IMG/VR virus record: IMGVR_UViG_3300027733_000135
Location: 1 to 33,630 of that record
Source: a virus
DNA: 33,630 bases
Direction: 5' to 3' (one strand)
Both the position numbers and the translations under genes were made by a program. Positions 5,018 through 33,630 of the stretch are shown one piece after another. The notes below the pieces were generated by a model, which saw only the letters and a program-made list of their open reading frames with translations, did no database searches and was not told the origin of the DNA. Every line of letters starts with the position of its first letter. The stretch's first letter is position 1.

Positions 5018-5526
5018 GCGCTCCACGCGGCATACACGCGCCGCCCGCTCACCGGCGCCACCGAGGTCGCCCAGGGCAGCGTCGAAGGCCGGCGCCACTC
5101 CCCGGTGGCGATGGCGACGTGGAGCCAGACGCCGCATTTTGCCGCCATCGGCCTCGCTAGGGTCAGCGCGCCCGTGTGGAGCGACTCGGCGATGACTTGG
5201 CGCAGCGGGTGGGGCGAGCTCGCCCAGCTGGCGTGGACGATCTCCAGCAGATCCAGCGCGCTGATCCCGTCGACCTGAATGTCGAGCGCGTGCCCGGTGT
5301 CGTGCTGGGAGCCGGTTCGCTCGGGGCCGCGGTAGCCGCTGGTGATGCGGACGGGGCGACCAACGAGGCCGCGGATCCACTCGGCGACGGCGCAGGTTTT
5401 CGCCATCGCGGCCTGGGCGTTGGCGTCTGCGGCCAGGCCAGCGCGGCGCACGGTGACGGCCTCGGGGGTGCCGGTAACGACATCGTCCCAGGCGAAGTGC
5501 GGTGCGACGTTCGCGGTCCAGTCCAA
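5014..5526 (-). CDS. Peptidase M15-family endolysin
   Basis: A 170-residue protein starting with TTG at 5526 behind GGAGG (4-base spacing). Zinc-site residues of the M15 (D-Ala-D-Ala carboxypeptidase/L-Ala-D-Glu endopeptidase) family are visible: ITSGYRG (61-67), SQHDTGHALDIQ giving H75 and D82, and WLHVAI giving the third ligand H136. Such enzymes cut peptide cross-links of peptidoglycan and release virions. There is no signal peptide or cell-wall-binding domain, so export should depend on the downstream holin-like protein. The length fits single-domain phage endopeptidases. The family call is strong; exact bond specificity is unknown. Confidence 0.85.
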   Translation of the reverse strand: MDWTANVAPHFAWDDVVTGTPEAVTVRRAGLAADANAQAAMAKTCAVAEWIRGLVGRPVRITSGYRGPERTGSQHDTGHALDIQVDGISALDLLEIVHASWASSPHPLRQVIAESLHTGALTLARPMAAKCGVWLHVAIATGEWRRPSTLPWATSVAPVSGRRVYAAWSA

Positions 5527-5544
5527 GGCGCCTCCAATGGCCGG

Positions 5545-5554
5545 AGCGTACCAC
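5545..5554 (-). promoter_or_regulatory. GTGGTACGCT box, possible promoter of the lysis cassette
   Basis: Read on the minus strand this is GTGGTACGCT, i.e. TG-G-TACGCT, matching the extended -10 pattern TGnTAnnnT. It lies 18 bp upstream of the endolysin start, in the only non-coding gap of this area. Identical or one-base-different boxes occur at 9687-9696 and 21973-21982. No convincing -35 box is seen. Confidence 0.4.
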
Positions 5555-5589
5555 GCTGGCTACCCTGTCGACGACCAAGGAGGTCCACG

Positions 5590-6261
5590 ATGTCCGCCAC
5601 TCTCCTCACCGCCGCCGAGGTCGTCCGGGTGCTCTCCGGCTCGACGCTCGCGATCCAGATGGCGACGCTGTTCCTCAGCGCGCCAACCACGCTCACGATC
5701 TCCGGCGGCGTCGTCACCGCCACCCAGACGCAGCACCTGATCGACACCGAGGGATCGGCCGCCAGCGACGACCTCGACACGGTGACCGGCGGCGCGACGA
5801 TCCCGATCCTGATCCTCCGCCCCGCCAGCGGCGCCAGGACGGTGGTCCTCAAGCACGGCACCGGCAACCTGACGTGCGAGCTCGCCCAGAACGTCAGCCT
5901 CGCCGACGCCACCGACGTGGCCGTCCTCGTCTGGAACGGCACCGGCTACACGGTGTCGAGCTACAGCACGATCGCCCCCACCGGCGGGCTCGGCTACCTC
6001 GGCCAGGGGCTTGCGGAGAAGGTCAGCACGTCGCACGTCCTGACGGGCTCGCTTGCCTTCGCGGCCGGCGACACGAGCAAGACCGCCGCCGTGAGCTCAG
6101 GCTTCAACGGCTGCAAGGTGATCGTCTGCTTCGGCGCTAACCCGCTGCTCAGCGTGGCCGGCGGCGTCTGGGGCGTCGTATCAGGGGCCACGCTCACCGT
6201 GACCCTCGGGATCGCGCCCGGCGGCGCTGGCACGACCGTCAACTACCTGCTGTACTACTGA
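5590..6261 (+). CDS. Probable tail-fibre or appendage protein
   Basis: A 223-residue protein with a near-perfect Shine-Dalgarno AAGGAGGT (5578-5585) before the ATG. After a short helical start the sequence is beta-rich. Its central part (DTVTGG, IPILILRPASGARTVVLKHG, TGNLTCEL, LVWNGTGYTVSSYS) follows a pattern I know from C-terminal parts of phage tail fibres. Residues 140-223 form a glycine-rich beta domain ending NYLLYY. It lies on the plus strand, opposite to all surrounding virion genes, between the lysis cassette and baseplate-distal genes, and overlaps the end of the next minus-strand gene by 7 bp. A receptor-binding or virion-decoration role is likely but not proven. Confidence 0.6.
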   Translation: MSATLLTAAEVVRVLSGSTLAIQMATLFLSAPTTLTISGGVVTATQTQHLIDTEGSAASDDLDTVTGGATIPILILRPASGARTVVLKHGTGNLTCELAQNVSLADATDVAVLVWNGTGYTVSSYSTIAPTGGLGYLGQGLAEKVSTSHVLTGSLAFAAGDTSKTAAVSSGFNGCKVIVCFGANPLLSVAGGVWGVVSGATLTVTLGIAPGGAGTTVNYLLYY

Positions 6262-7019
6262 GTCACGACCGGCGCGACGAGGCCCTTGGGTGTGGCGTAG
6301 GCGATGGTCCCGGTAGCCGTCGCGACGTCGTCGGCGTGGCCGGCGAGGTTGCCGACGAACGGGAACAGCGCCGCCCTCCCAGGGCACGGCACGAGCACGC
6401 GGACGCCCTGGCCGTCGACGAGGGAATAGGTCCCATCGAAGCCGCTGGGGAGGTTCATCACCTGCCAGGTGTCCCAACCGGTCTCGGTCCCGGTGGTGAC
6501 CCGCACATCGGCCCGCTCCAGCAGGAACACCGACGCGCTCGCGTACTCGGTGGTGACGGCGACAACACCGCTCCCGCCGCCGACGCGGCTGGCGCTGATC
6601 CCGGTGGGCTGGAGGATCCAGTCGATGATCATCACCTCGTCGTCATCGGAATCGACGCTGGCGGTGATGATCGTGTTGACCGCAGCGGAGGCGTTCAGAA
6701 GCGGGACCCACTCCGCGATCAGCTCGGCCAGGGTCGCGGCGCTGGCGACGTAGTCGTAGCGCGCGGAGGCGTCGGGGAATTCGAGGCGGTAGGTGTCGTT
6801 GCCGTCGAACGGGTCGAGGGTGACGCGCGCCCGACGCCGCGCCGTGTCCTCCTGCAGCGAGATCTGAACGAGCGCCTGGAGCGCGCCGACGACGCTGTAG
6901 CCGCCGCTTCCCCTCGCCGGGAGAACGGTGGGGTCGATGGTAGCGGCGCTCTGCTCGGGGACGGCGCCGCTCGCGAGGAGGGCGTAGCGGAGGGCGAGGG
7001 TCTGGTCGGAGCTGGACAT
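6255..7019 (-). CDS. Hypothetical virion-associated protein
   Basis: A 254-residue protein with an ATG at 7019, 7 bp after the stop of the upstream gene. Mixed alpha/beta sequence. The N-terminal region has DPTVLPARGSGGYSVVGALQ and a charged segment EDTARRRARVTLDPFDG. The C-terminal half has RADVRVTTGTETGWDTWQVM and a glycine/valine-rich end. There is no signal peptide or membrane span. Its location at the distal end of the baseplate gene cluster suggests a tail-fibre-connector or fibre protein. I do not recognise a family. Confidence 0.65.
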   Translation of the reverse strand: MSSSDQTLALRYALLASGAVPEQSAATIDPTVLPARGSGGYSVVGALQALVQISLQEDTARRRARVTLDPFDGNDTYRLEFPDASARYDYVASAATLAELIAEWVPLLNASAAVNTIITASVDSDDDEVMIIDWILQPTGISASRVGGGSGVVAVTTEYASASVFLLERADVRVTTGTETGWDTWQVMNLPSGFDGTYSLVDGQGVRVLVPCPGRAALFPFVGNLAGHADDVATATGTIAYATPKGLVAPVVTQ

Positions 7020-7026
7020 CGTGGCC

Positions 7027-7995
7027 TCAGATGATCGGGTTCAGGACGCCATGATCGGCCACGACCGTGACGGTTCGGAGCGCATCCGCAGTGGGCAGGC
7101 CAGCTCCAAGCGCAGCCGAGTACAGCTCGACCACGTAGTGCTTCAGCTGCGGATCGGTGATCTCGCCTGACCCGGCAAACGTGAAGGTCGGGGTAGCCGC
7201 GTCGAGCGTGCAGAGGACGGTCTCTGCGCCGGTCGACTTGAGGATCTTGATCACGCGGACCTTGAAGTCGTTTGTGGCGCCGACATAGGTGGCGGTGATG
7301 CTCACCAGCTTGGGAAACAGCGCCGGGCCGGTGCTTGCTGGGTCGTAGGGGATGACCAGCGGTCTGCGGAACGACGCATTCTGAGGCACGGCGTTCGGGT
7401 TGAACAGCAGGTGAGACGTTCCCAGCGCGACCAGCGAGGCCGGCAGACCGGCGCCCACGAACGGGTTGACGACGATCGGCGTGTAGCCACCGCCGCTCGG
7501 AGAGAAGTCGTGGTCAAGCGTGAGCAGGTCTGTGTAGTCGTACTGGAAGCGCGCGCCGTACACCGCGTCGGCGATGGCTTTGGGGCCGACCATGCCGGTG
7601 GGCTGGACCTCCAGCATCACAACCGGCCCGGTGCTCTGGAGGATCTTCACGAAGCCGGTGGTGTTGTCGAAGAAGATCCCGGGAAGCCCGCCAGCGTTGC
7701 CCCCAACGACGAGCCCGGCGTTGCCCCCGATCGTGGTCCAGGTCAACGCGCCGCGCGTGGTAGGCCCGGCGGGGTCGACGACGCGGAAGGTCTCGGCGAC
7801 GACGACGTTCGACGCGGGGACGATGTCCGCAAGGTAGCCGATCCAGTCGAAGGCCTCGCCCCAGAGGTCGTTGCACTGGAGCGGGTCGATGGGCTCGCCG
7901 CTCACCCAGCCCGTGCCCTGGCGGCCGAGCGTGGGGACGGTGCGGGTTCCTCCGTTGGTGGCCCACTCGGGCGGCGCGGCTGGTCTGGTCGGCAT
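7027..7995 (-). CDS. Hypothetical tail/fibre protein
   Basis: A 322-residue protein. The ATG at 7995 follows AGGAG with 7-base spacing; the in-frame extension upstream overlaps the previous gene and is arginine/proline-rich shadow sequence. It contains a tryptophan-rich segment near residues 35-55 (LWGEAFDWIGYL) and then a long beta-type sequence (VVVGPT-like strands, GGNAGLVVGGNAGGLPGIFF, QYDYTDLLTLDHDFSPSGGG). It follows the DUF2612-like gene, the place usually occupied by fibre genes in this type of myovirus. Role in host attachment is inferred from position only. Confidence 0.65.
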   Translation of the reverse strand: MPTRPAAPPEWATNGGTRTVPTLGRQGTGWVSGEPIDPLQCNDLWGEAFDWIGYLADIVPASNVVVAETFRVVDPAGPTTRGALTWTTIGGNAGLVVGGNAGGLPGIFFDNTTGFVKILQSTGPVVMLEVQPTGMVGPKAIADAVYGARFQYDYTDLLTLDHDFSPSGGGYTPIVVNPFVGAGLPASLVALGTSHLLFNPNAVPQNASFRRPLVIPYDPASTGPALFPKLVSITATYVGATNDFKVRVIKILKSTGAETVLCTLDAATPTFTFAGSGEITDPQLKHYVVELYSAALGAGLPTADALRTVTVVADHGVLNPII

Positions 7996-8005
7996 GGTCG
8001 GACTC

Positions 8006-8575
8006 CTACACAGCCAGCGGATAACCCCACGCGCTCGTCGGCGAGAGCACCGCGCCCCAGAGGTAGGTGGCAGCGGTGTAGAGGATCGCTTCGGCCGGCA
8101 TGGACCGATCGATCGCGTCCCGCAGAACGCGCCCGGCGCGCTGGAGGTACGGCTCCGATGGCGTGAACCCGGCGAAGGCGTACATGAACAGGCCGACGTG
8201 GACGCCATCGCTGATCAGCCCGATCCTCCCATCCTCGGCCCCGGCCAACCCGAGGAGCACGGCGTAAACGTCGCCCACCTCCCCCGCCGACCCGATCGAA
8301 AGCCTCCGCCCCGCCACGATCCGCCGGTACTCGGTGGTCCCGAGGCCCGCCGGGGGCTCGTTGACTTGGGCGCCAGCGATCTCCAGCACCCACGCCGGAG
8401 CCTGCTCCAGGTCGACGTATCCGGCGGCGAGCGTGAGCAGCTGCTGATCCAGCACCGACCACGGCAGCGAGAGCCCACGGATCCAGACGCCCGACGCGCC
8501 GATTGCCGAAGGAGCCGGCGTGAGGCCGTTGACGTAGGCGTCCCAGTCTTCGAGCGTGGGGTAGATGGCGGTCAT
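8006..8575 (-). CDS. DUF2612-like baseplate protein
   Basis: A 189-residue protein coupled to the gpJ-like gene by an ATGA overlap at 8572-8575. It shows the layout of the DUF2612 baseplate family. A region placing the chain end (LDQQLLTLAAGYVDLEQAP) is followed by VLEIAGAQVNEPPAGLGTTEYRRIVAGRRL and a segment resembling the usual sequence before a short repeat on RNA/LLG helices (DVYAVLLGLAGAED). In DUF2612 proteins the second part normally reads as IG/GAQVNEPR..L.D.EYRR. The protein should sit near the distal baseplate and connect to fibres. Family call from motif similarity and gene order. Confidence 0.7.
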   Translation of the reverse strand: MTAIYPTLEDWDAYVNGLTPAPSAIGASGVWIRGLSLPWSVLDQQLLTLAAGYVDLEQAPAWVLEIAGAQVNEPPAGLGTTEYRRIVAGRRLSIGSAGEVGDVYAVLLGLAGAEDGRIGLISDGVHVGLFMYAFAGFTPSEPYLQRAGRVLRDAIDRSMPAEAILYTAATYLWGAVLSPTSAWGYPLAV

Positions 8576-9976: not shown

Positions 9977-10178
9977 CGGCCTCCGCGCACTCCGCCGCGA
10001 TCTTCTCGGCGTCGACGGCGCGGAAGAACTCCAAGTCCCGGCCATCGGGAAGTACGACGGCGTGGAGCGAGCGAAGCGGCGGCGGCGGCGGCGGCCGCGG
10101 GCGTTCATCGCTACGCCAGAGTCTGCCAATAAAGCGGAGGCCCCGACGTCTGGTAGGGGTCCGCGACGGTGACGCCAA
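9876..10178 (-). CDS. Doubtful small gene antisense to the preceding one
   Basis: An open frame with protein-like sequence at 10030-9920 (HAVVLPDGRDLEFFRAVDAE, then KIAAECAEAVSWGNPW) lies in the gap between the gp25-like gene and the plus-strand gene. No good start codon with a Shine-Dalgarno is visible: the only start-type codon is TTG at 10178, inside the gp25-like gene. The beginning runs through a proline run encoded by the GGC repeat, and the end is antisense to the 82-residue gene. It may be a remnant or may start at an unusual codon. Confidence 0.25.
   Translation of the reverse strand: MASPSRTPTRRRGLRFIGRLWRSDERPRPPPPPPLRSLHAVVLPDGRDLEFFRAVDAEKIAAECAEAVSWGNPWQRALWRGSARALRRWLASAPPSPAAP
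10076..10095. repeat. GGC trinucleotide run
   Basis: About six and a half copies of GCG/GGC in tandem in the non-coding or doubtfully coding gap between the gp25-like gene and the small plus-strand gene. It could change length by slippage. Confidence 0.8.
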
Positions 10179-10512
10179 CGCCGAAAGCCCGGCCGCGAAC
10201 CATGAGCCGGCAGAGGACTTCGCAGGTGATCACCCCGTCCACCACAGTCGCAGCCACCCGCTCGATCGCGACGACGCCCGGCACGAGCACGACCTGCGCC
10301 CTCACCGCCCCCTCGATCTCCGCGAGCGGCACGGCCAACCGGGTGAGCCAGTCGCCCCAGGGCAACCCCCGGGCCACGTCCTCCAGCGCGCTCCCCCGGT
10401 GCGTGCGGAGGCGGTGCCAGATCTGGATGGCGATCGCCTCGTAGCCGTGGGCGTAGGCGAAGGGGACGCGGACGGCGCCGGTGGAGGTTCGGGCGAGCGT
10501 GGGAGCGGTCAA
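10111..10512 (-). CDS. Baseplate wedge protein, gp25/W-like
   Basis: A 133-residue protein starting with TTG at 10512 behind GAGGTG (5-base spacing). The pattern matches the T4 gp25 / Mu and P2 gpW-like baseplate family: a helix with QIWHRLRTHRGSALEDVARG, then LPWGDWLTRL, a helix with EIEGAVRAQV and a beta strand (VVDGVITCEVLCRLM). Such proteins anchor the baseplate wedge to the sheath. It lies just upstream of the gpJ-like gene in transcription order, as in other contractile-tail modules, separated from the spike gene by the PAPS-reductase-like insertion. Confidence 0.75.
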   Translation of the reverse strand: MTAPTLARTSTGAVRVPFAYAHGYEAIAIQIWHRLRTHRGSALEDVARGLPWGDWLTRLAVPLAEIEGAVRAQVVLVPGVVAIERVAATVVDGVITCEVLCRLMVRGRAFGVGVTVADPYQTSGPPLYWQTLA

Positions 10513-10516
10513 GGTG

Positions 10517-11428
10517 TCACCTCTCGGTCTCGCACATACCCCACCTCATGCACCCGTCATCGGGATCGTCCACCGGTCCGAAGAGGTTCTCCTGGTCCAG
10601 CGATGCTCGGTTGACGGTGTTCGCCCACCTCACCGCGTCGTCGATACTGACGCCGAGGCGCTGGCCGTCTTCGTTCTTACGCGTTGCCGAAAACAACGAC
10701 GGCAAGTGGTGATGTTCGCCATCATCATGGCCGGCCGCGTGAATCCGCTGCACCACTGCCTCCAGCATCCGGATCGCCTCCATCCGGTTGGCGTCGCGAC
10801 CGACCATCCGCAACTCGGCCTTGCGCGCCATGATGCACGGGAAGCACCCGACCCGGCTGGCGCCCATCAGGTAGAGCGGGTTCGGCTTGATCTGGTGACG
10901 CTGGTGGATGGCGATCACGTCGGCCTCCGTCCACGCGATGATCGGGCGCCAGACCTCGCAGTCGAGCGTGACGGACAGCTCACGCTCGGGCATCTTGGCG
11001 CGTGCGGCGGACTCAGCAGCGCGGATCCCGACGACGTTGACGGGGTAGCGGCCGGCTTCGTGTTCTGCGCGCATGACCTTCTGCGCCTCGAACACCTTGA
11101 GGCTCTGTGTGCAGAAGCGGACCGTGCGGCGCGGCATGATCCGCTTTTTCAGGCAGAGCCGCACGAATGCGCTCGGCGTGATGCCCAGCACGGCCTCGAT
11201 CGCTTCGGCCTCAGCGGTCAACTCCGGCGACAGCGTGACCGGGCAGGCAGAGCGCGCGATCTCCATGCTGAGCGCGTCTTGCAGGTAGTCGAGGTGCTGG
11301 TACGTGAGCGCGTGCTCCCATCCGGTGTCAAAGAAAACGAGGCGCTGCGTGAGTCCGAGTTCTTTGAGGTGTAGGACGGTCGCGGTGCTGTCTTTGCCGC
11401 CGGAAACGCTGGTGATGTAGCTGGTCAA
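10517..11428 (-). CDS. PAPS reductase-family (PP-loop) protein
   Basis: A 303-residue protein with a TTG start at 11428 after GGGGG, 23 bp downstream of an operator-type -10 box. Motifs: PP-loop SGGKDST (9-15), FDTGWEH (33-39), GIRAAES (134-140) and the C-terminal GCFPC (C195, C198). This pattern is that of the phosphoadenosine-phosphosulfate reductase/PP-loop superfamily, which activates substrates with ATP; relatives include DndC and phage PAPS-reductase-like proteins of unknown substrate. A zinc or Fe-S site is suggested by the C-x-x-C and by further cysteines at the C-terminus. It interrupts the baseplate cluster under its own promoter, so it is an accessory gene. The substrate (sulfur chemistry on DNA, RNA or a small molecule) cannot be told from sequence. 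Confidence 0.8.
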   Translation of the reverse strand: MTSYITSVSGGKDSTATVLHLKELGLTQRLVFFDTGWEHALTYQHLDYLQDALSMEIARSACPVTLSPELTAEAEAIEAVLGITPSAFVRLCLKKRIMPRRTVRFCTQSLKVFEAQKVMRAEHEAGRYPVNVVGIRAAESAARAKMPERELSVTLDCEVWRPIIAWTEADVIAIHQRHQIKPNPLYLMGASRVGCFPCIMARKAELRMVGRDANRMEAIRMLEAVVQRIHAAGHDDGEHHHLPSLFSATRKNEDGQRLGVSIDDAVRWANTVNRASLDQENLFGPVDDPDDGCMRWGMCETER

Positions 11429-11450
11429 GGTGCCCCCGTGTGGTCGGCTA

Positions 11451-11479
11451 CCACTAACCGCTAGCGGGGCGCCCGCCAT
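11451..11479 (-). promoter_or_regulatory. Operator-type promoter of the PAPS-reductase-like gene
   Basis: Minus strand: TAGCGGTTA half site (11455-11463) running into -10 TAGTGG (11451-11456), with a 12-bp near-palindrome CCGCTAGCGG at its centre. The hexamer 17 bp upstream (ATGGCG, 11474-11479) is a poor -35 box. Geometry relative to the -10 matches the four other TAGCGGTTA promoters. Confidence 0.55.
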
Positions 11480-11589
11480 CATCGAAGCACCTCGCCCCAC
11501 CGGTAGCTCCCCCAGCACGAGCGGTCATCCCCGCAGGCGGGGATCACGGCCAGCGCGGCGAGCATCATCAGCAGGCCGCGCCGGGTCAC
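11479..11589 (-). CDS. Small lipoprotein (36 residues)
   Basis: A GTG start at 11589 overlaps the stop of the spike gene (GTGA). The product is MTRRGLLMMLAALAVIPACG followed by DDRSCWGSYRWGEVLR. It has a basic n-region, a hydrophobic core and a lipobox VIPA-C with Cys19, i.e. a signal-peptidase-II-type lipoprotein with a mature part of only 18 residues. Size and type resemble Rz1-like outer-membrane spanins, whose partner could be the coiled-coil protein at 4285-4620, but a separation of about 7 kb is unusual. Superinfection exclusion is another possibility. Coupling and the clear lipobox make it likely to be real although very short. Confidence 0.55.
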   Translation of the reverse strand: MTRRGLLMMLAALAVIPACGDDRSCWGSYRWGEVLR

Positions 11590-12179
11590 GAGTCCACCCG
11601 GATCCGGTCGGAGCGGGTGGCGCTCACGGCGTAGGAGTTGGCGACGCCGGCCGCAGCTGCGATCGTGTCCAGCGCGGTCTTGATCGCGTTGAGGTTGGTC
11701 CGCACGAGGTCGTTGCGGGTGAGGTACTCGGCGGCGGCGGCGGTGCCGATGTAGACGGCCTCGGCGGAGGGGAGCCCGATCACCATCTGCCCATCCTCCC
11801 GGTACGGCAGCGTCCCGCGCCCACTGGGAAGGAGGACCTGGTCTGACCAGTCGAACCGCCGCGAGCTCGCCGGGGTCAGCGGCACCTCCGCCCCATCGTC
11901 GATCTCGTCATGCGAGCGGGACCGGACGACCCCGAGGAGCACGTCGCCCGCGTCGAGCCCCCAGGTGATGGAGCGCCCGCCGCCCTCGGGATGCTGGACC
12001 GGCACGCCGTAGACGATCGGCCCAGGTCCATCGCCGATCTGCACGGCGCTGCGGACGTCGGCGGTTCGGGTGGCGGCGTGGTACTCGACGACGACGACGT
12101 AGCCGGCGACCTCGATGCCCTCGCGGGTGGCGGGAGCGTTGGCGAGGAAGAGGTCGGCGAGCGTGGCGCGTTGGTTCAC
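11586..12179 (-). CDS. Baseplate spike protein, Gp138 N-terminal-like
   Basis: A 197-residue protein starting with GTG at 12179, overlapping the hub stop (GTGA). An N-terminal helix (MNQRATLADLFLANAPAT) is followed by an OB-like region with VEYHAATRTADVRSAVQIG, GVPVQHPEGGGRSITWGLDAGDV and RSRSHDEIDDG, then FDWSDQVLLPSG. This is the pattern of the Gp138 N-terminal domain of membrane-piercing spike proteins. The C-terminal helix has LVRTNLNAIKTALDTIAAAAG, as in other short spikes. It follows the hub gene, the expected position. In the virion it should cap the tube and puncture the outer membrane. Confidence 0.75.
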   Translation of the reverse strand: MNQRATLADLFLANAPATREGIEVAGYVVVVEYHAATRTADVRSAVQIGDGPGPIVYGVPVQHPEGGGRSITWGLDAGDVLLGVVRSRSHDEIDDGAEVPLTPASSRRFDWSDQVLLPSGRGTLPYREDGQMVIGLPSAEAVYIGTAAAAEYLTRNDLVRTNLNAIKTALDTIAAAAGVANSYAVSATRSDRIRVDS

Positions 12180-12985
12180 TTAGCAACCCTCCCAGTCACG
12201 TAGGTGTACCACTCCGGCCCCCAAAGGTCCCCGGCGTGCTCGACCTGCTCAGCGACGTAGTCCCCGGCGAGGGTGTCGCCACCGAGGCGGTAGGTATCGC
12301 CGGGGAGGATGCCCGGCTGCATGAGCGTGGTGGAGCGTACCTTCCCCCCGTCGACCTGCTCGGGGTAGCCGACGAGCCCCGAGGCCGGCGCGAAGATGAA
12401 CGCCCGGGTCCTCAGCGCCCCCGACAGCGGCAGCAGCACCAGCCGCCCCGCCTGCACCGACCAGGTACACCCGCAATCGGTGGCGAGCGTGGTGAGCACC
12501 TGGCGCGCCTTCCCGTAGGCCGTGAACCCCCGCGCGTAGACCAGATCCACCGGCAGCGCCTGAGCCGGCAACGAGAGCCCCAGCGCCCCGGCGATGTACG
12601 AGAGCACCTCCGACGCCTTCACCGCCCCCGGCCAGCTCGTGGAGAGCGTCACCGAAGCCAGCGCCGTCGTCGCCTCCTGGACCTGCCACGACGTGACCAC
12701 CTCGCCCTCGGAGACGACGCGGCGCAGCGAGAGGGGGACGACCTGCCCCTGCATCACCTCGCCCGGCCCGTCCGCGTAGCCGGCGACGAGGCGGGTGATC
12801 GTGTCGTCCCGCCCGAGTTGGCCGTAGGAGTCGGTGTTGAGGCCCCACACGTCGATCTGGGCGCCGTCGAAACCCTTGCCGCTGCGGCGGGACCGGAGGC
12901 GCACGCGGAGCCCGTCGATCTCCTGGCCGAGCTGGCCGGGGACCTGGATCTGGAGGCGGGCAACGCGGCCGAAGTAGGTGGTCAT
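12176..12985 (-). CDS. Baseplate hub protein, gp27/gpD-like
   Basis: A 269-residue protein with an ATG at 12985 and a weak GGCGG upstream. The fold pattern of the T4 gp27/P2 gpD hub family is visible: an N-terminal beta segment with RLQIQVPGQLGQEIDGLRV and IDVWGLNTDSY, then LVAGYADGPGEVMQG. The second part has EVLSYIAGALGLSLPAQ, LTTLATDCGCTWSVQ and a beta-rich end (VEHAGDLWGPEWYTYV). Hub proteins join tube and spike. Coupling with the Gp138-like spike by a GTGA overlap fits a functional pair. Confidence 0.75.
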   Translation of the reverse strand: MTTYFGRVARLQIQVPGQLGQEIDGLRVRLRSRRSGKGFDGAQIDVWGLNTDSYGQLGRDDTITRLVAGYADGPGEVMQGQVVPLSLRRVVSEGEVVTSWQVQEATTALASVTLSTSWPGAVKASEVLSYIAGALGLSLPAQALPVDLVYARGFTAYGKARQVLTTLATDCGCTWSVQAGRLVLLPLSGALRTRAFIFAPASGLVGYPEQVDGGKVRSTTLMQPGILPGDTYRLGGDTLAGDYVAEQVEHAGDLWGPEWYTYVTGRVAK

Positions 12986-12994
12986 GCCGCCAGC

Positions 12995-13342
12995 CTACCC
13001 GCAGCGGTCCACCGTCGCCACGCACACCTCCAGCGTGCAGCCGGGCGCCAGCCAGAACGAGGCCTTGCCGCCGGCCTGGCGGGCGCGCGCGACGAGGCGC
13101 TCCTCAACGCCGGGCATCCGGCTTGCGGCGAGCTCGCGCGCGGCCTTGCTCAGCTCGGGGTGCGTCGACGCAGCCCGGAGCGACATGTAGAGGTCGGCGT
13201 CGTCGAACGGGCGGGTGAAGGCGTCCAGCCACACCTGCAGCTCGCGGGCCTCGGGGCGCCAGGCCTCGGGGTAGCGACGCTCGGGGAAGAGGTCGCGCTG
13301 GGGGCGGATGGGCGCCGCGGCCCACCGGCTACGGCTACCCAC
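12995..13342 (-). CDS. Hypothetical protein between DpdA operon and hub
   Basis: A 115-residue protein, likely starting with GTG at 13342, which overlaps the end of the zinc-ribbon gene by 8 bp; no strong Shine-Dalgarno. It is mostly helical with RYPEAWRPEARELQVWLDAF, PFDDADLYMSL and VEERLVARARQAGG, and ends in a cysteine-containing segment (APGCTLEVCVATVDRCG). No family recognised. By overlap it belongs to the DpdA-like operon rather than to the hub gene, which has a 9-bp gap. Confidence 0.55.
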   Translation of the reverse strand: MGSRSRWAAAPIRPQRDLFPERRYPEAWRPEARELQVWLDAFTRPFDDADLYMSLRAASTHPELSKAARELAASRMPGVEERLVARARQAGGKASFWLAPGCTLEVCVATVDRCG

Positions 13343-13562
13343 CGGACACCTCGCAGCGACCGGTGGTGGTCGGGCACACGTCCCGCACCACCACCGGCTT
13401 GGGCTCCAGCGCCGGGTTCGCCCGCCTCGGCCCCGGCGGGTGGCACGCCTCGCACACCCGCAGCCACCCGCCGGTGACTCGGATGCAGAGGAGGGGGTCG
13501 CCGCAGCGGGGGCAGTTGACGAGGCCCTCGCGGGGGTTGCCGACTTCGGTGGGGCTGCTCAT
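13335..13562 (-). CDS. Zinc-ribbon protein downstream of DpdA-like gene
   Basis: A 75-residue protein with GAGGTG before an ATG at 13562 that overlaps the DpdA-like stop (ATGA). It has a zinc-ribbon pattern NCPRCGDPLLCIRVTGG with C-P-R-C and a second pair V-C-E-A-C-H about 20 residues on. The C-terminus has PVVVRDVCPTTTGRC. Probably binds one zinc ion; could contact nucleic acid or another protein of the operon. A function cannot be assigned. Confidence 0.65.
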   Translation of the reverse strand: MSSPTEVGNPREGLVNCPRCGDPLLCIRVTGGWLRVCEACHPPGPRRANPALEPKPVVVRDVCPTTTGRCEVSGG

Positions 13563-14308
13563 GCAGCACCTCGAAAAAAGTCGCCTTGGCGGGCCGATGC
13601 GGCAAGCGGCGCAGCGCGGCACGAGAACCGAGTCGGGCTGGACCCGTCCACGGAGTGCGCGCCGGCGGCTACCGCCAGCGCCATCCGGCGCCCGGTGTTG
13701 ACGCGGCCTACGTGCATCCAGACGGCCATCTCCGCGGCGAGGTCTCCCCACATCCGCATGGTCGACTCCTTCCACTCGGTGCTGCCCCCGACGAAGATCC
13801 CGACCTGGCATGCGGGGTGGTCGAGGTAGCGGCGCACGTCCTGCGGCTCCATGCCGTCCTGGACCGGCAACAGGACGTAGTGCCGCGCCACCTGCAGCAC
13901 CCGGTGCATCCAGTCCAGCGACAGCTCCAGCGACCGGCGGCCCCCGCAGACAATGTCGGGCAGCACGATCATGTCGGCGTCACTGCCTATCAGACGCAAA
14001 GCCTCCCTGAACCGGTCGGGCTGAAACCCGCCCTCCCCAAACGCGCCGTTGTCGAGCATGTAGGGCCACGGAGGCCGAGCATCGGGATAGCGCCCGAGCT
14101 GCTGGGGCGTTGCGAGGAGGCGGATCCCCGCGTTCGCCATCGCCGCGAGGTTGCGCGCGGAGCCGGTCCTTGACGCATACACCACGGGCTTTCCGTGCAG
14201 GCCCTGCTCGGCGCGGCACTTGGCGGTGCAAAACAACCAGTCGTTGCGGAGCCGGGCGCCGCACGAGCACAACCGATGGCACGAGCTGGGCTGCTCGCGC
14301 CAGGTCAC
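13559..14308 (-). CDS. dpdA-like: DpdA-like DNA 7-deazaguanine transglycosylase with N-terminal zinc ribbon
   Basis: A 249-residue protein, GTG start at 14308 coupled (GTGA) to the small membrane gene; a longer in-frame reading is arginine/proline-rich shadow. The C-terminal part has the signature of phage TGT-paralogue/DpdA proteins: YMLDNGAF (83-90), VLPDIV with D118, PVQDG (148-152), FVGGSTEWK (172-180), MHVGRVN (198-204) and SVDG (219-222). These proteins exchange guanine in DNA for a 7-deazaguanine base and can shield phage DNA from host nucleases. Residues 10-31 hold five cysteines (C10, C14, C16, C27, C31), a zinc-ribbon-like domain fused in front that is unusual for short DpdA. No folE/queD/queE/queC genes are in this window, so precursor may come from the host or from genes outside it. 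Confidence 0.8.
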   Translation of the reverse strand: MTWREQPSSCHRLCSCGARLRNDWLFCTAKCRAEQGLHGKPVVYASRTGSARNLAAMANAGIRLLATPQQLGRYPDARPPWPYMLDNGAFGEGGFQPDRFREALRLIGSDADMIVLPDIVCGGRRSLELSLDWMHRVLQVARHYVLLPVQDGMEPQDVRRYLDHPACQVGIFVGGSTEWKESTMRMWGDLAAEMAVWMHVGRVNTGRRMALAVAAGAHSVDGSSPTRFSCRAAPLAASARQGDFFRGAA

Positions 14309-14439
14309 GGCGCCCACCAAAGCACCACCACCGCCAGCACGACGAGGGCGAAGGCGAGGTCCTGGAACACCTCGGGGAGCTGGAGCCAGAGGAAGCCGGC
14401 GGTGAAGAGGGTGCAGGTGAGCCAGAGGGTGGCGATCAT
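14305..14439 (-). CDS. 44-residue membrane peptide of the DpdA-like operon
   Basis: Reads from an ATG at 14439, which overlaps the previous stop (ATGA), to a TGA that overlaps the DpdA-like start (GTGA). The sequence is almost entirely hydrophobic: ATLWLTCTLFTAGFLWLQL, then EVFQDLAFALVVLAVVVLWW, i.e. two transmembrane helices with a short acidic turn. Coupling on both sides argues that it is genuine. It could be a holin-like or inhibitory peptide or a membrane anchor for the operon products. No homologue is recalled. Confidence 0.65.
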   Translation of the reverse strand: MIATLWLTCTLFTAGFLWLQLPEVFQDLAFALVVLAVVVLWWAP

Positions 14440-14675
14440 CGCTCCACCTCTGCCAGCGCGTCGGGTCCGACTCGGGCGAGGAGGGCGGCGCGGTCGCCGG
14501 CGAGGTCGCAGTCCTCGTCTTCGTCCTCAGCGGCGCAGGCCCGGCAGAGCCCCTCGTCATTCAACGCGTGCTCCGGCCCTTCGGTCTCGCACCCCTGGCA
14601 CGGCACATCATCTTGCGGGTCGGTGCTGTAGCGGCGCTTGCGTGGGTAGTCGGGGCCAAACGCTTCGTCGGTCAT
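14436..14675 (-). CDS. Zinc-finger-like acidic protein, first gene of DpdA-like operon
   Basis: A 79-residue protein with AGGAGG before its ATG at 14675, 26 bp after the -10 box of the operator-type promoter at 14701-14729. It contains VPCQGCETEGPEHALNDEG then LCRACAAE, i.e. two CxxC pairs about 18 residues apart, and an acidic run (EDEDEDCD). The C-terminal helix has ALLARVGPDALAEVER. A small zinc-binding regulator or adaptor is likely. It is the promoter-proximal gene and therefore the first made. Confidence 0.65.
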   Translation of the reverse strand: MTDEAFGPDYPRKRRYSTDPQDDVPCQGCETEGPEHALNDEGLCRACAAEDEDEDCDLAGDRAALLARVGPDALAEVER

Positions 14676-14700: not shown

Positions 14701-14729
14701 ACCATAACCGCTACCCTACAGAGCCGCAA
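14701..14729 (-). promoter_or_regulatory. Operator-type promoter of the DpdA-like operon
   Basis: Minus strand: TTGCGG (14724-14729), 17-bp spacer, TATGGT (14701-14706), with the TAGCGGTTA half site at 14705-14713 overlapping the -10 box. It lies inside the 3' end of the baseplate plug gene, so the operon has its own promoter although it is embedded in the tail region. Confidence 0.7.
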
Positions 14730-20387: not shown

Positions 20388-20428
20388 TAACCGCTACCTT
20401 TGACGCTGCGGGTGGTAGCGGTTATCCT
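20388..20428 (+). promoter_or_regulatory. Second copy of the promoter/operator palindrome
   Basis: TAACCGCTA (20388-20396), TTGACG (20400-20405), 17-bp spacer containing TAGCGGTTA (20416-20424), and TATCCT (20423-20428). Length and spacing of the palindrome (37 bp) are identical to the copy at 1558-1594. The leader that follows is also similar. It reads into the 67-residue plus-strand gene and sits between minus-strand neck genes. In the minus direction the left arm overlaps a -10-like TAGATT. Confidence 0.8.
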
Positions 20429-28583: not shown

Positions 28584-30113
28584 TCAGCGGCGCGCGCCTC
28601 CACGCAGCAACCGCAGAACCTCCGCAGGGTCCACCTCCGCCGCCCCCTGGCGCTCCTGATCCCAGAGGATCACCATCACGTCGGCATCAGCCTCGTCGTC
28701 GACCTCGCCCTCTTTGAGCCCGGTCACGGCGGTCATGCGCTCGACGTAGCCGTGCTGCCAGGGCTGGGCCTGCTCGGGCATCAGCCACGATCCAGCCTCG
28801 AAGACCGGAGATGCGGCGAGGTAGCAATCCCGCTTGCTCCGCGACTTCTGGACGGGCACGATCCCGGGGATCTCGCGGCTGATGGTCTGGTAAACGGCCT
28901 TGCCGCTGCTCTTGGCCTCGATGAGCGTGGCGTGCGGCTTGACCTGGGCGATCACACCGCGCACGAGCGCGAGCAGCTCGGGGAGCTCGACTTGTTGCCG
29001 CCACTGGCCAAGCTTGAGGTAGGCCCCGGCGCGGCGCCCGACCCAGGTGAGCACCGACCAATCCCCGGCCCCAGCCGTCTCCGCGCCGTCGAGGGCGAGG
29101 ACGTGCCAGTCGCAGATCCGGGCGACGTCGGCGGGGTTGCCGGCGTAGGTCTTTGAGAAGAACGTGGGCTTGAAGGTGGAGCCGGCGTCGTCGATGGGCT
29201 CGCAGTCGAGGACGGCGGCAGCGAGGCGGGCGCCGAGCTCCACGCGGGTGTCGGCCTCGCCCTCGGGGGTGAAGCCGGGGAGAAGGTACTGGCCGGGCGC
29301 GCGGCCCATCCGATCGCCGGGCTTCGCGCGCAGCGGGTAGCTCAGGACCACCGGGGCGCGGCGGGATCCCGCGCTCTCCTTGCGCTGCCGGCCGTGCGGG
29401 TCGTCGGAGCCCCAGCGAGAGCCCACGAGGACGATGGCGCCGCCGCGGGTCTGGACGCGGAGGTAGGCCTGGCTCTGCACGAACGACCACGCCTGATCCC
29501 GCATCGCCTTCGACGCGTACTCGGTCTGGTTCTTGAGCAGGTCGTCTCCGACCACGAGCCAGAAGGCGTGGCCGTTGAGCCCGCCTTCGCGGCCGCGCGC
29601 GGCGAAGCGCACGTTACGGCCCTTGGGGTCGGCGTTCGTGACTGACCAGTCGGCGGAGCTGTCCTTCACGCGCTGGCCGGTGTCGTCGACGTCGTCGGCC
29701 TCGTTCTTCTTGCGGCCGAGGTGCGGCCAGACCCGCAGCGCGAGCCCGCTTCGAAGGGCGGCGCGGACGTCGTCGGAAATCCCTTCGGCGAGGCTCGCGG
29801 CGTAGCTCGCGACGGCGGCGTTCTGGCCCTTGCTGGCGACGTGCCAGGCCATCCACAACGCCACGAGGTGCGTCTTCCCGACCTGCGTCATCACCTCGAC
29901 CTGGAGCCGGATCTGGACGATCGGCTCCTTGGCGAGGAACGCCCGCTCCGCCTCCACGAGCTGCTCCGACACGCTCTGGAGGTACTCGGCGGCGTTCCGC
30001 TGCCAGTCGTAGAGCTCTGGCCCCGCGAGCTCGCACCACGTCACGAGGTCCACGCGCGCCCGGCGGATGCGCTGCTCCAGGCGCAAGGCGGCGAGGGCCT
30101 CGGTGGGGGTCAT
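28584..30113 (-). CDS. terL: Terminase large subunit (TerL)
   Basis: A 509-residue protein coupled to the upstream ATPase by ATGA (30110-30113). ATPase domain: adenine-binding-like segment ELYDWQRNAAEYLQSV, Walker A MTQVGKTHL (residues 75-83), Walker B WLVVGDDLLKN and a coupling-type motif VLVGSRWG. Nuclease domain: LALDGAETAGAGDWSVLTW, TLIEAKSSGKAVYQ and a third acidic cluster (DDEADADVMVILWDQ). It packages DNA into proheads. Length is normal. The gene order TerS-ATPase-TerL is unusual because an SMC-like gene separates the subunits. Confidence 0.9.
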   Translation of the reverse strand: MTPTEALAALRLEQRIRRARVDLVTWCELAGPELYDWQRNAAEYLQSVSEQLVEAERAFLAKEPIVQIRLQVEVMTQVGKTHLVALWMAWHVASKGQNAAVASYAASLAEGISDDVRAALRSGLALRVWPHLGRKKNEADDVDDTGQRVKDSSADWSVTNADPKGRNVRFAARGREGGLNGHAFWLVVGDDLLKNQTEYASKAMRDQAWSFVQSQAYLRVQTRGGAIVLVGSRWGSDDPHGRQRKESAGSRRAPVVLSYPLRAKPGDRMGRAPGQYLLPGFTPEGEADTRVELGARLAAAVLDCEPIDDAGSTFKPTFFSKTYAGNPADVARICDWHVLALDGAETAGAGDWSVLTWVGRRAGAYLKLGQWRQQVELPELLALVRGVIAQVKPHATLIEAKSSGKAVYQTISREIPGIVPVQKSRSKRDCYLAASPVFEAGSWLMPEQAQPWQHGYVERMTAVTGLKEGEVDDEADADVMVILWDQERQGAAEVDPAEVLRLLRGGARR

Positions 30114-32032
30114 GCGCTCGCGACTTCCATGTCACCACCCGCCGTCGTCACCAGCAGCACCACCCCCGGCGCCGTCGGGATCTCCAGCCCCCCGACCGAC
30201 GTCACGTCATCCACGAAGACGAGAAGCGCGTCGAGCCCAGCAGCGGCCCGGAGTCGCAGACGAAAGCCGGCGTCGGCGGCGACGCGCTCCCCGTGGCTGG
30301 CGAGGTACCACGGTCTCCCGTTGATCTCGACCCTCGTTTTGCCTTCGTGGTCGATCACCCGCATCGCGTCCCATCCGAGGCTCGCGAGCTTTGAGCCCAG
30401 CGCGAGCGCCGGGGCGCAGCGCACCGTCACCAGCCAGCCCTCGGCGGTGGCAAGGAGCGCCTCGGCTTGGGTGGCGTCGGCTTCGGCGGCAGTCGCTGCG
30501 GCCTCAGCGCGGGCGACGGCGGCGAGGTGGTCGGCGAGGCGGGTGGCGGCGCGCTCGGCGCTGGCGATCGTCTCGGTGGCTTGGGTGGTGTCGGGGGCCT
30601 CGGGGCGCGGGCGGAGCGGCTCGGGGTCGGTGGGGCGGGCGCCGAGGGCTTCGACGCGGGCGTCGTGGGTGGCCCAAGCGCGGGAGCTGGCGCGGGCGGC
30701 GTCGAGGGCTTCCTGGGCGCCGCTGGCGTAGATGGCGGAGACGGGGGTGGGCTCGGCGTGGACCTCGGGGCGCTTGCCCAGGTCGGTCACGCGGCTGTTG
30801 TAGCGTGCCCAGGCTTGGGCGCGGTCCATCGCGGCGAAGGCGTGGTCGGGGCGCGGGGCCTGCGCGGCGCTCCACGCGTCCCAGGTCGCCCACACGGCGG
30901 CGTGGTCGGCGTTGCGCTTCTCCGCGTCCTCGGCGGAGCGGTTCGCGATCTGGCACGCCTTCGCGCCGGGACACGGCGTGGCGGTGGAGAACGCTACCCA
31001 GTCGCGGGCAAGGATCGGCTGGGTGGGCCGCGGCGCGCGCTCTTGCTCCTCCCACGCGGCGATGGCTTCGCGGGCGGTGTCGACCTCGTCGGCGGTGGGG
31101 CCTGGCTCGGAGGGCTCGACGAGGCCGGCGGCGCGAGCGTCCCACTCGGCGGCGGCGCGGGACGCCAGCGCGTGAGCGTTGCCGGCGGCGCGGGCGGCCT
31201 CGACGGCGCGGGCGGTGGCGTCGTTGGTTGCGCGCTCGGCCCCGGCCGCTTCCTCCAGATCCGCCGTCACCAGCACCCGCTCAAACCCCGGCGCGACGAT
31301 CGCATCGCGACGACGCTGCCAGTCCGCGACGGCAGCCAAGCCGGCGCGGTGCTCGGCGTCCTCAGTGCGCCAGGCGGCGAGGTCTTCGACGGCGGCGGCG
31401 CTGGCGGCGAGGAGCGCGCGGGCTTCGGCGACGGCTTCGTCGATGGGTCCAGCCGGGGGCGGCGTCGTCGGCACGGCGGAGCGGAGGCCGCTGGCGCGAC
31501 CACGGGCGGTGCTGGCGTCGCGGCGAAGGGTGGTGACGAGCGTGGCGGCGGTCTTCTCCTCGCGCGGCGCGGTCTTCGGCAGCTCCGCGAGGAGGTCGGC
31601 GGCGGTGGGGCCGGGGAGCATCCGGTCGAGGGCGGCGCGGAGGGCGAGGCCTCCCTGGGCGCCTTCGAGGAGCGAGATCCAGCGCATCGGGAACATGACC
31701 AGCCCCGCCGCCTCGGGGTCCTGGTAGTGCTTCGGGAGCGCGGCGCGGAACTGCTCCTCCGTGCCGCCGGGGGTGGGCGTGCCGTCGACGACTATGGCTC
31801 TCGAGGTGCCGCGGCGGCCGGCGCCGTCGAAGGATGCGCCGCCGGTGCCGCTGACCATGCCGGCGTCGAACTTGGCGCCGGTCGCGTCCTGGCCCCAGAG
31901 CGCAAAGGCGATGGCGTGGAGGAGCGTGGACTTGCCGCTGGTGCTCGGACCGCTGATGGTCGTCACGGCGGTGGGGTCGAACTCAACGCTGCGGTCGGTG
32001 TGCGGGCCGATGCCCTGGATCCTGAGCTTCAT
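30110..32032 (-). CDS. SMC/SbcC-like ATPase with internal coiled coil
   Basis: A 640-residue protein; ATG at 32032 behind GGAGG. N-terminal Walker A GPSTSGKST (28-36). C-terminal SHGER (579-583), an ABC-type signature followed by GLDALLVFVDDVT (Walker B-like, ending in DD rather than DE). Between them is a long Ala/Glu/Arg-rich coiled coil with a cysteine pair in CPGAKAC, where Rad50/SbcC have a CxxC zinc hook. The size is well below SbcC or Rad50. No nuclease partner (SbcD/Mre11) is seen in this window. It has its own operator-type promoter at 32058-32086 and is coupled to TerL. A role in DNA-end processing, replication or defence is possible; none is shown. Confidence 0.75.
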   Translation of the reverse strand: MKLRIQGIGPHTDRSVEFDPTAVTTISGPSTSGKSTLLHAIAFALWGQDATGAKFDAGMVSGTGGASFDGAGRRGTSRAIVVDGTPTPGGTEEQFRAALPKHYQDPEAAGLVMFPMRWISLLEGAQGGLALRAALDRMLPGPTAADLLAELPKTAPREEKTAATLVTTLRRDASTARGRASGLRSAVPTTPPPAGPIDEAVAEARALLAASAAAVEDLAAWRTEDAEHRAGLAAVADWQRRRDAIVAPGFERVLVTADLEEAAGAERATNDATARAVEAARAAGNAHALASRAAAEWDARAAGLVEPSEPGPTADEVDTAREAIAAWEEQERAPRPTQPILARDWVAFSTATPCPGAKACQIANRSAEDAEKRNADHAAVWATWDAWSAAQAPRPDHAFAAMDRAQAWARYNSRVTDLGKRPEVHAEPTPVSAIYASGAQEALDAARASSRAWATHDARVEALGARPTDPEPLRPRPEAPDTTQATETIASAERAATRLADHLAAVARAEAAATAAEADATQAEALLATAEGWLVTVRCAPALALGSKLASLGWDAMRVIDHEGKTRVEINGRPWYLASHGERVAADAGFRLRLRAAAGLDALLVFVDDVTSVGGLEIPTAPGVVLLVTTAGGDMEVASA

Positions 32033-32057
32033 GGCGCCTCCGTTGTGTGGCACCACT

Positions 32058-32086
32058 CGACTAACCGCTACCCTCCGCAGCGTCAA
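32058..32086 (-). promoter_or_regulatory. Operator-type promoter of the SMC-like ATPase
   Basis: Minus strand: TTGACG (32081-32086), 17-bp spacer, TAGTCG (32058-32063), with TAGCGGTTA (32062-32070) overlapping the -10 box. It lies in the 3' end of the small terminase gene, 25 bp before the ATG at 32032. It would allow the ATPase, and by read-through TerL, to be expressed separately from the small terminase. Confidence 0.7.
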
Positions 32087-32552
32087 CGCCCAACCGTCGA
32101 AGCGCCTCCCGAGCCTCGATCTGCGCCACCGCCGCGGCGAGGGCCTCGTCGCTCATCCCGGCGACGACGTGGCTGGCGTGGACGTGCTCGATCGGGGCTT
32201 CGGGGTTGCCGCTGTGGCGGACCTCGACGGGTTCGCGGGGAAGGCCGACTTCGAGCAGCGTTCGCGCCGCCGTCACCCGCGCCGCCGACGGGTTCTTCTT
32301 GTCGCGGTGGACGTCGATCAGCGTCCCCACCGCGCCGGGCATCGCGCGGACCACGGCCTTGCGAACGGCGTCCTGCGCGTCCTGCTGCACGCTGTCCATG
32401 TACGCTTTGACGTGCGAGCGGGCGAGGATCTTCCAGACCGTCGACTTCGCCCGCGGCGGGTCCATCGCCTTCCCGATCGCTTCGAGCTGCGTGCCCAGGA
32501 GGCGGGCCTCGGCGCAGGCTAGCTCCTCGGCGTCTAGGGTGGTCTCATCCAT
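32061..32552 (-). CDS. Terminase small subunit-like protein
   Basis: A 163-residue protein, ATG at 32552, overlapping the methyltransferase end by 8 bp. The N-terminal part has an HTH-like region (EAIGKAMDPPRAKSTVWKIL, ARSHVKAYMDSV), then QDAQDAVRKAVVRAMPGAVG and SAARVTAARTLLEVGLPRE, the pattern of small terminase subunits that bind the packaging site. The C-terminal helix has DEALAAAVAQIEAREALRRL. Position directly upstream of the ATPase-TerL block supports the role. Confidence 0.75.
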   Translation of the reverse strand: MDETTLDAEELACAEARLLGTQLEAIGKAMDPPRAKSTVWKILARSHVKAYMDSVQQDAQDAVRKAVVRAMPGAVGTLIDVHRDKKNPSAARVTAARTLLEVGLPREPVEVRHSGNPEAPIEHVHASHVVAGMSDEALAAAVAQIEAREALRRLGVDAAEGSG

Positions 32553-33630
32553 CGAGCGCCCCCGATCCGGCGTCGATGCCGGCCTCTTTGGCGTAGCGGG
32601 TCCAGCGGCGGCGGATGACGTCGCAATACCTCGGATCCAGCTCGATCACCCGGGCTACGCGGTCGGTCTGGGCGCAGGCGAGGAGGGTGGTTCCGCTGCC
32701 GCCGAATGGGTCGAGGACGGTCACGCCTTCGGGGACGAAGCCGACCGACCAAACCATCACCTTGAGCGGCTTCTGGGTGATGTGCTCCTTTGCCTCCCCG
32801 CTCCAATGGTGCTGCAGGACGCGCACGAGCGGGCTGCAGTTCGTCCATGCCAGCTCGGCCTCGGCGAATGAAAGCCCGTCGTTCTTCTTGTGCCAGACCA
32901 GCCACTTGGCGGACGGTGGCAGGTCGCCGAAGTAGTTCCCGCCCCACACCACGACGGCGGGCGCCACCTCGAGCAGCCATGCGACGGGCGGGGCGGTGGT
33001 GTCCCACTCGGTTGTGCCGCGCTGGGCGTCCACACGGCTGCGCCACGCCTTATCCTTCGCGCCCATGCCAAACTTCGACGCGTCGATCCCATACGGCGGA
33101 TCCGTCACCACCGCCCCGACGCCAGCGCACGCCGCAGCCCGGATCGCCGGGTCGGTGTTGTCGCCGCACCAGATCCGATGCACCCCCAACTCGTACACCT
33201 CCCCCGGCTTGCTGTGGACCTCCACCTGCACATCGGGGACGTCGTCGGTGGCCTCGGGCGCCTCCTTCGGCTCCGCGAGCATCGCCGCCAACTCCTCATC
33301 ACCGAAGCCCAGCCCGCTCGGGTCTTCGATCTCCCGGAGCATCGCAACCAGCTCGGCGTCGTCCCACTGGCTCTGCTTGGTCATCGCGTTGTCCGCGATG
33401 GTCAGCCGCGCCGCCGTCTCATCATCCACCTCGACGAAGCGGACGGGAACGAAGCCCACGCCGGGCGCGTCGGGCAGCGTCCACGCCGAGTCCATCGCGA
33501 GCGCCGCCAACGCCGCGAGGCGCCGCCGGTGCCCGGCGAGGATGCGGAGGTCAGACCGTCGCGCGACCAGCGGATCCGTCCAAACCGACGACGCGACCAG
33601 AGCCCGAAGCTCCTCGATCTCGGCGTCGGT
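32545..33630 (-). CDS. ParB-like nuclease domain fused to DNA methyltransferase (5' partial)
   Basis: An open frame of 362 codons that runs off the right edge. The N-terminal part has the ParB/sulfiredoxin fold pattern EIEELRALVASSVWTDPLVA, then ARRSDLRILAGHRRRLAALA and VPVRFVEVDDETAARLTIAD. The C-terminal part is an amino-methyltransferase (N4/N6) with TDPPYGID (motif IV) preceding LDPFGGSGTTLLA (SAM-binding motif I), i.e. the beta-class order, and KWLVWHKKNDG between. ParB-MTase fusions are common next to phage terminase genes and may mark the packaging site or protect DNA. The start is not in the window; a TTG at 33510 is internal and not the real start. Confidence 0.85.
   Translation of the reverse strand, partial: TDAEIEELRALVASSVWTDPLVARRSDLRILAGHRRRLAALAALAMDSAWTLPDAPGVGFVPVRFVEVDDETAARLTIADNAMTKQSQWDDAELVAMLREIEDPSGLGFGDEELAAMLAEPKEAPEATDDVPDVQVEVHSKPGEVYELGVHRIWCGDNTDPAIRAAACAGVGAVVTDPPYGIDASKFGMGAKDKAWRSRVDAQRGTTEWDTTAPPVAWLLEVAPAVVVWGGNYFGDLPPSAKWLVWHKKNDGLSFAEAELAWTNCSPLVRVLQHHWSGEAKEHITQKPLKVMVWSVGFVPEGVTVLDPFGGSGTTLLACAQTDRVARVIELDPRYCDVIRRRWTRYAKEAGIDAGSGALDG

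Follow-up and report, generated by a model that had tools for sequence, protein, structure and literature searches.

The phosphorothioation systems known so far need the partner proteins SspB, SspC, DndD, and DndE. In a published analysis, DndC has three cluster cysteines and, apart from these, a cysteine dyad proposed to hand sulfur to DNA (PMC10853773). BrxP of type 4 BREX is commonly fused to DUF4007 (PMC12839542). In Sinorhizobium prophages, PADLOC calls SspD together with MTase_II (PMC12429752), and the authors of a Thermus phage study noted a link to defence systems and considered that such proteins deserve study (PMC11437467). Viral genes of the same superfamily are commonly reported under the name cysH, given as a core auxiliary metabolic gene in virome papers (PMC9301287) and listed elsewhere as not validated (PMC12713726); "cysH" is counted among the globally conserved viral auxiliary metabolic genes and read as viral sulfur cycling. 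Here we describe a gene of this superfamily (the PAPS gene) in a linear virus record of 33,630 bases with a GC content of 70.7% (the window; Table 1). We put at roughly one in two the probability that its product is a stand-alone SspD/DndC-like PP-loop sulfurtransferase that modifies DNA.

Table 1. Features of the window discussed in the text.
Feature	Coordinates	Strand	Evidence
gp25-like baseplate wedge, downstream border of insertion	10111..10512	-	phrog_120 3.4e-5; L196 homologue 47%
PAPS gene, SspD-like PP-loop ATPase of PAPS-reductase superfamily	10517..11431	-	PF01507, PHROG 424, PADLOC SspD
Promoter/operator half-site GCTAGCGGTTA, upstream of PAPS gene	11455..11465	-	1 of 7 window sites; leader comparison
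Central spike (PF18352), upstream border of insertion	11586..12179	-	profile match; homologue in L196
Baseplate hub	12176..12985	-	phrog_196 5e-44; L196 61%
DpdA-like (TGT-fold) gene, exact start uncertain	13559..14308	-	phrog_15826 9e-33; relatives annotated DpdA-like; predicted fold
Small protein, first gene of DpdA operon	14436..14675	-	ATG behind half-site 14705-14715; L196 homologue
Promoter half-site GGTAGCGGTTA of DpdA operon	14705..14715	-	1 of 7 window sites
ParB-N6/N4 DNA methyltransferase fusion, cut by window end	32545..33630	-	phrog_498 2.3e-58

Reading frame, promoter, and insertion into the tail operon

The PAPS gene is a genuine open reading frame, confirmed by profile searches in which its product matched PF01507 (E = 5.5e-20) and PHROG 424 (E = 2.4e-47), the latter over residues 34–266, which covers the catalytic domain. 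The frame is open on the minus strand from GTG 11518 down to 10517. An earlier note had placed the start at 11479, which is probably too early; a start at that ATG or at GTG 11518 would put the promoter half-site inside the gene, and the start at 11479 was rejected. The start is best read as TTG 11431, giving a product of 304 aa; this codon is preceded by a ribosome-binding site (GGGGG) and a leader containing CCACAC, in an order (CCACAC, ribosome-binding site, start) that resembles the leaders of two other genes with this promoter type, and it also agrees with the N-termini of relatives. Cysteine numbers given below count from GTG 11518; 29 is to be subtracted for the 304-aa protein.

The same note had proposed that the gene is an insertion between the spike and gp25 genes, a proposal borne out by L196, the one close relative found through a search with the hub (a spike-based search found no relatives). 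L196 and the window share the gene order hub, spike, gp25, J (61%, 37%, 47%, and 62% identity, respectively), and in L196 the spike (6926–7630) and gp25 (7673–8083) genes are separated by 42 bp, with no PAPS relative and no DpdA relative anywhere in its 41.4-kb record. The PAPS gene has a GC content of 64.7%, as compared to 71.6–71.9% for hub, spike, gp25, and J. Synteny, in a comparison with one relative, and composition both support insertion, and we regard it as near certain that the tail operon has received the PAPS gene as an accessory gene. Just upstream of its hub, L196 carries a gene (5076–5984) that appears by its motifs (DLFAGAGG...) to encode a C5 cytosine methyltransferase; in the window, this place is empty, and the DpdA and PAPS genes lie in two other places. 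A small zinc-ribbon-like protein (13335–13562) is conserved unusually strongly between the window and L196 (84% identity), most other genes being 35–70% identical.

The PAPS gene has, as previously noted, an operator-type promoter in common with the DpdA-like operon (Table 1). The underlying half-site, GSTAGCGGTTA, is present in seven copies in the window as compared to none expected (0/100 shuffles), and also precedes an exonuclease gene, a divergent pair at 20388–20424, and an ATPase gene (at 32062). Copies at 1584, 20414, and 32072 have a TTGAC −35 box, while the PAPS copy has no clear one and the DpdA copy has TTGCGG. At 1558–1594 and 20388–20424, the half-sites form inverted pairs (TAACCGCTA...TAGCGGTTA) around the TTGAC box, which looks as for a repressor-controlled divergent promoter. 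The half-site is thus a phage-wide signal that marks six transcription starts rather than one pathway, so that its sharing by the PAPS and DpdA genes says little, and the argument from a common operator to a common pathway was dropped. The ATPase gene (30110–32086) has the same promoter type and encodes an AAA_23 (SbcC/Rad50-like) protein; since its match to DndD is confined to the P-loop (E = 0.0018), a Dnd system in the window was rejected as well.

Conserved cysteines and predicted fold

Relatives of the PAPS protein at 35–59% identity were found on 31 viral contigs (one a fragment match), and a profile search adds many more; a pattern-based scan of 84,980 cellular genomes found only eight relatives that were at least 39% identical. 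The motifs SGGKDS (the PP-loop), GIRAAES, CFPC, and RFCTQSLK are intact in the PAPS protein, in agreement with an earlier reading of its PP-loop, GIRxxES, and CxxC motifs, and all are conserved in relatives. Among 56 diverse aligned sequences, the invariant elements include SGGKDS, C136, K141, GxRxxES..R, RVGCxPC, and the C323/C329 pair, and five cysteines (C136, C225, C228, C323, and C329) are invariant. Counted as motifs, SGGKDS and C.PC are present in 56/56 sequences and the RxC[TS]..[LV]K-type motif in 55/56; the C-terminal cysteine pair is recovered by regular expression in 55/56, the 56th having a C-x4-C pair. A distant member of the family is found on many conjugative plasmids, IncC included (1,515 plasmid records match; an example is L241, NZ_CP132611.1 2590–3705).

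The AlphaFold model of the PAPS protein (pLDDT 91.5) predicts an APS/PAPS-reductase core fold: residues 1–208 best match APS/PAPS reductases, with Z = 16.9 for Mycobacterium tuberculosis APS reductase (against 7lhs, Z = 16.9 over 174 residues, rmsd 2.4), followed by FAD synthase, CysD, GMP synthetase, and the thiolases TtuA and NcsA; "PptA" was a weak match among solved structures. An HMM alignment with the M. tuberculosis enzyme pairs GCxPC with GCAPC and LKV with RKV; this pairing places C136 on the first cysteine of the CC pair of that enzyme. By alignment, C136, C225, and C228 match three of the four APS-reductase cluster cysteines.

This fold and the database names invite the view, held in databases and virome papers, that the PAPS gene is a CysH-type auxiliary metabolic gene for sulfate assimilation: PF01507 and PHROG 424 both bear that name, and the core fold is the same. 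However, the catalytic cysteine motif of CysH, ECG[LI]H, is found in 0/56 relatives, and the ATP PP-loop of the PAPS protein is intact, whereas E. coli CysH has no SGGKDS and a single cysteine, within ECGLH. In addition, APS kinase exceeded the cut-off in 0/50 PAPS records, many of which are fragments, and no sulfur genes were found among the commonest immediate neighbours of the PAPS gene. A role in sulfate metabolism, one of the options raised in the earlier note, is thus unlikely; the best reading is that the protein is not CysH, and that the gene serves sulfate assimilation in the virome sense we consider highly improbable.

The two thiolases among the structural neighbours, both with [4Fe-4S] clusters, would fit a protein that modifies host or phage RNA, for example by thiolating tRNA so as to counter anticodon nucleases or to tune translation. 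Their scores (Z about 11.5–11.9), however, compare with 16.9 for APS/PAPS reductase and correspond to a common PP-loop fold, and the neighbours of the PAPS gene are DNA methyltransferases; an RNA substrate is therefore unlikely, and most likely the nucleic acid acted on by the PAPS protein would be phage DNA.

Association with DpdA–QueC and with methyltransferases

The predicted fold of the DpdA-like protein in the window best matches TGT (Z = 15.0); since the scores of other TIM barrels come close to this value (Z = 14.7), its identification also rests on annotated relatives. A single-sequence search with this protein found one relative, and no QueC was found in the window. Using local profiles, we identified DpdA in 6/31 close and 2/77 farther PAPS loci, with QueC in all eight and directly adjoining DpdA in all six close relatives' records; the total of 8/108 loci becomes 9/109 when the window is counted, and about 92% of the PAPS relatives have no DpdA within the DNA examined. 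In the opposite direction, 4/78 DpdA loci contain a PAPS gene (three of the contigs concerned belong to the PAPS set as well), 74/78 are without one, and 21/78 contain QueC. DpdA relatives are otherwise rare (at least 303 in 2.9 million viral contigs). The search for co-occurrence of the two genes, as had been suggested, thus gave a frequency above expectation (9/109 loci), which, given the rarity of both genes, represents enrichment in about five lineages.

This enrichment raises the possibility that the PAPS protein belongs to a 7-deazaguanine pathway, in which it would tailor the base that DpdA inserts, for instance through conversion of the preQ0 nitrile to a sulfur- or nitrogen-containing group. 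Co-occurrence exceeds the prediction from the rarity of either gene; gene runs of DpdA, QueC, a methyltransferase or SSB, and PAPS are found in L012–L014, L017, and L019, the DpdA and PAPS genes are adjacent in L045, and they share a contig in L003, L058, and the window. However, DpdA–QueC behaves as a cassette of its own, twice present or absent within one phage lineage while the PAPS gene stays. L005, L006, and L008 share with L012 and L014 the order helicase, X, methyltransferase, PAPS, primase and differ from them by the DpdA–QueC cassette, and L021–L023 likewise differ from L019 by this cassette in the order helicase, (DpdA–QueC), SSB, PAPS. As orders with and without the cassette exist in one lineage, PAPS is kept without DpdA. 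In L014 (7873–8516), the DpdA-like frame is split into two overlapping open reading frames, through either decay or a sequencing error, while the QueC, methyltransferase, and PAPS genes beside it are all intact. Together with the 92% of relatives that are without DpdA, these observations argue against the earlier suggestion that PAPS and DpdA act in the same base-modification pathway; we judge a place in 7-deazaguanine synthesis quite improbable, and the best reading is that the PAPS protein is not a dedicated DpdA partner. In those parts of the literature that were available to us, no paper linking this family to DpdA or 7-deazaguanine was found.

PAPS genes are also found beside DNA methyltransferases. 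An N6/N4 methyltransferase is present in 20/50 PAPS records (40%), and in 14 of these 20 the two genes are no more than 2 kb apart, as compared to 2.8 expected under uniform placement; none of 200,000 simulations reached this value, and pruning of obvious relatives left 11/17 as compared to 2.3 expected. Methyltransferases are also the commonest class among 121 open reading frames immediately neighbouring PAPS genes; in Agrobacterium phage Rivra, the PAPS gene lies between two methyltransferase genes, all in overlapping frames. PHROG 498, the family of the ParB-methyltransferase fusion in the window, is the commonest neighbour family of PAPS genes in other phages. Because prevalence is alike in PAPS records (40%) and DpdA records (46%; 23/50), it was dropped as evidence, and only the close linkage counts; this linkage may itself reflect shared accessory regions. 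The parsimonious account is that the PAPS gene encodes a PP-loop sulfurtransferase linked to DNA modification, with motifs close to those of SspD, and is an accessory gene that is sometimes stacked with other modification genes.

Proposed function and comparison with known systems

If the PAPS protein is a DNA-modifying sulfurtransferase, its SGGKDS loop would split ATP and adenylate the nucleic-acid substrate, while C136, C225, and C228, which match APS-reductase cluster positions, would hold an iron-sulfur cluster. The C-terminal C323/C329 pair may accept sulfur from a cysteine desulfurase of the host, for example IscS, and transfer it to the activated substrate. Phage DNA modified in this way, on the backbone or on a base, would be protected from host restriction, and the enzyme would act alongside the other DNA-modifying genes of the phage (the DpdA-like and ParB-methyltransferase genes). 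A bolder version, which we regard as rather unlikely, is that this lone phage protein needs none of the Ssp or Dnd partners and, drawing on a cysteine desulfurase of the host, sulfurates phage DNA. The product would be either a new thio-base or a phosphorothioate made free of partners, and much of the virome "cysH" would be the same enzyme. If the PAPS branch does consist of DNA- or RNA-modifying sulfurtransferases, the ecological conclusions drawn on viral sulfur cycling would have to be revised, and phages would have a further modification route, tied to methyltransferases and in some cases to DpdA. Orf84 of phage 186, a relative of the PAPS protein, is non-essential in this laboratory coliphage, which makes the question of function directly testable.

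PADLOC models ranked SspD first for the PAPS protein (6.5e-17), followed by BrxP (7.6e-11) and DndC (1.5e-7). With SspD and BrxP as the best defence-model matches, and with a promoter of its own that fits a moron, the PAPS gene could be a defence gene that a prophage carries against competing phages, its product working with partners supplied by the host or the phage in the manner of Dnd, Ssp, or type 4 BREX. However, no restriction or effector partner was found among the window proteins scanned, and many PAPS relatives lie in phage replication regions rather than defence islands, which makes a defence role very improbable.

SspD resembles the PAPS protein in its SGGKDS loop, R-x-C-T-x-x-L-K motif, CxxC, C-terminal cysteine pair, and length of about 300 aa, and the cysteines of the one SspD recovered intact (C136, C224xxC227, and C290xxC293) have the same 3+2 layout. 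This comparison and the tree include that one SspD sequence, which stands on a long branch at an open fork; at two further loci, L217 and L218, no frame with SGGKDS could be used. The proteins differ in their C-terminal pair, which is CxxC in SspD but C-x5-C within GCMRWGMCE in the PAPS protein; in addition, PADLOC identified no SspA, SspB, or SspC beside the PAPS gene, and no SspB, SspC, DndD, or DndE was found among the proteins scanned from the window, which may be incomplete. BrxP, matched at the profile level, differs in that the PAPS protein has no DUF4007 domain.

The earlier note had offered a DndC-like role as an alternative, and this has support: the PP-loop, RWCT..K, and CxxC motifs are common to both proteins, and the cysteine layout of the PAPS protein resembles that given for DndC (PMC10853773). 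However, the DndC open frames among the sequences compared are 410–520 aa long, no DndD or DndE was found beside the PAPS gene, and DndC forms a separate clade in the tree (support 99/93), because of which the PAPS protein was not filed under DndC.

CysH and APS reductases share the core fold with the PAPS protein, and by alignment three of the four cluster cysteines of APS reductase are shared as well, but the PAPS protein has an intact ATP PP-loop, is without ECG[LI]H, and extends at its C-terminus into an additional region that holds a cysteine pair. As two defining features of CysH are thus absent, the protein was filed under PHROG 424, the family that includes Escherichia phage 186 orf84 and Stenotrophomonas phage S1 gp30; it has the WSxTxRGGxQ region and the C-terminal cysteine motif in common with these members, while itself falling into a W-containing GCxxWGxC subfamily.
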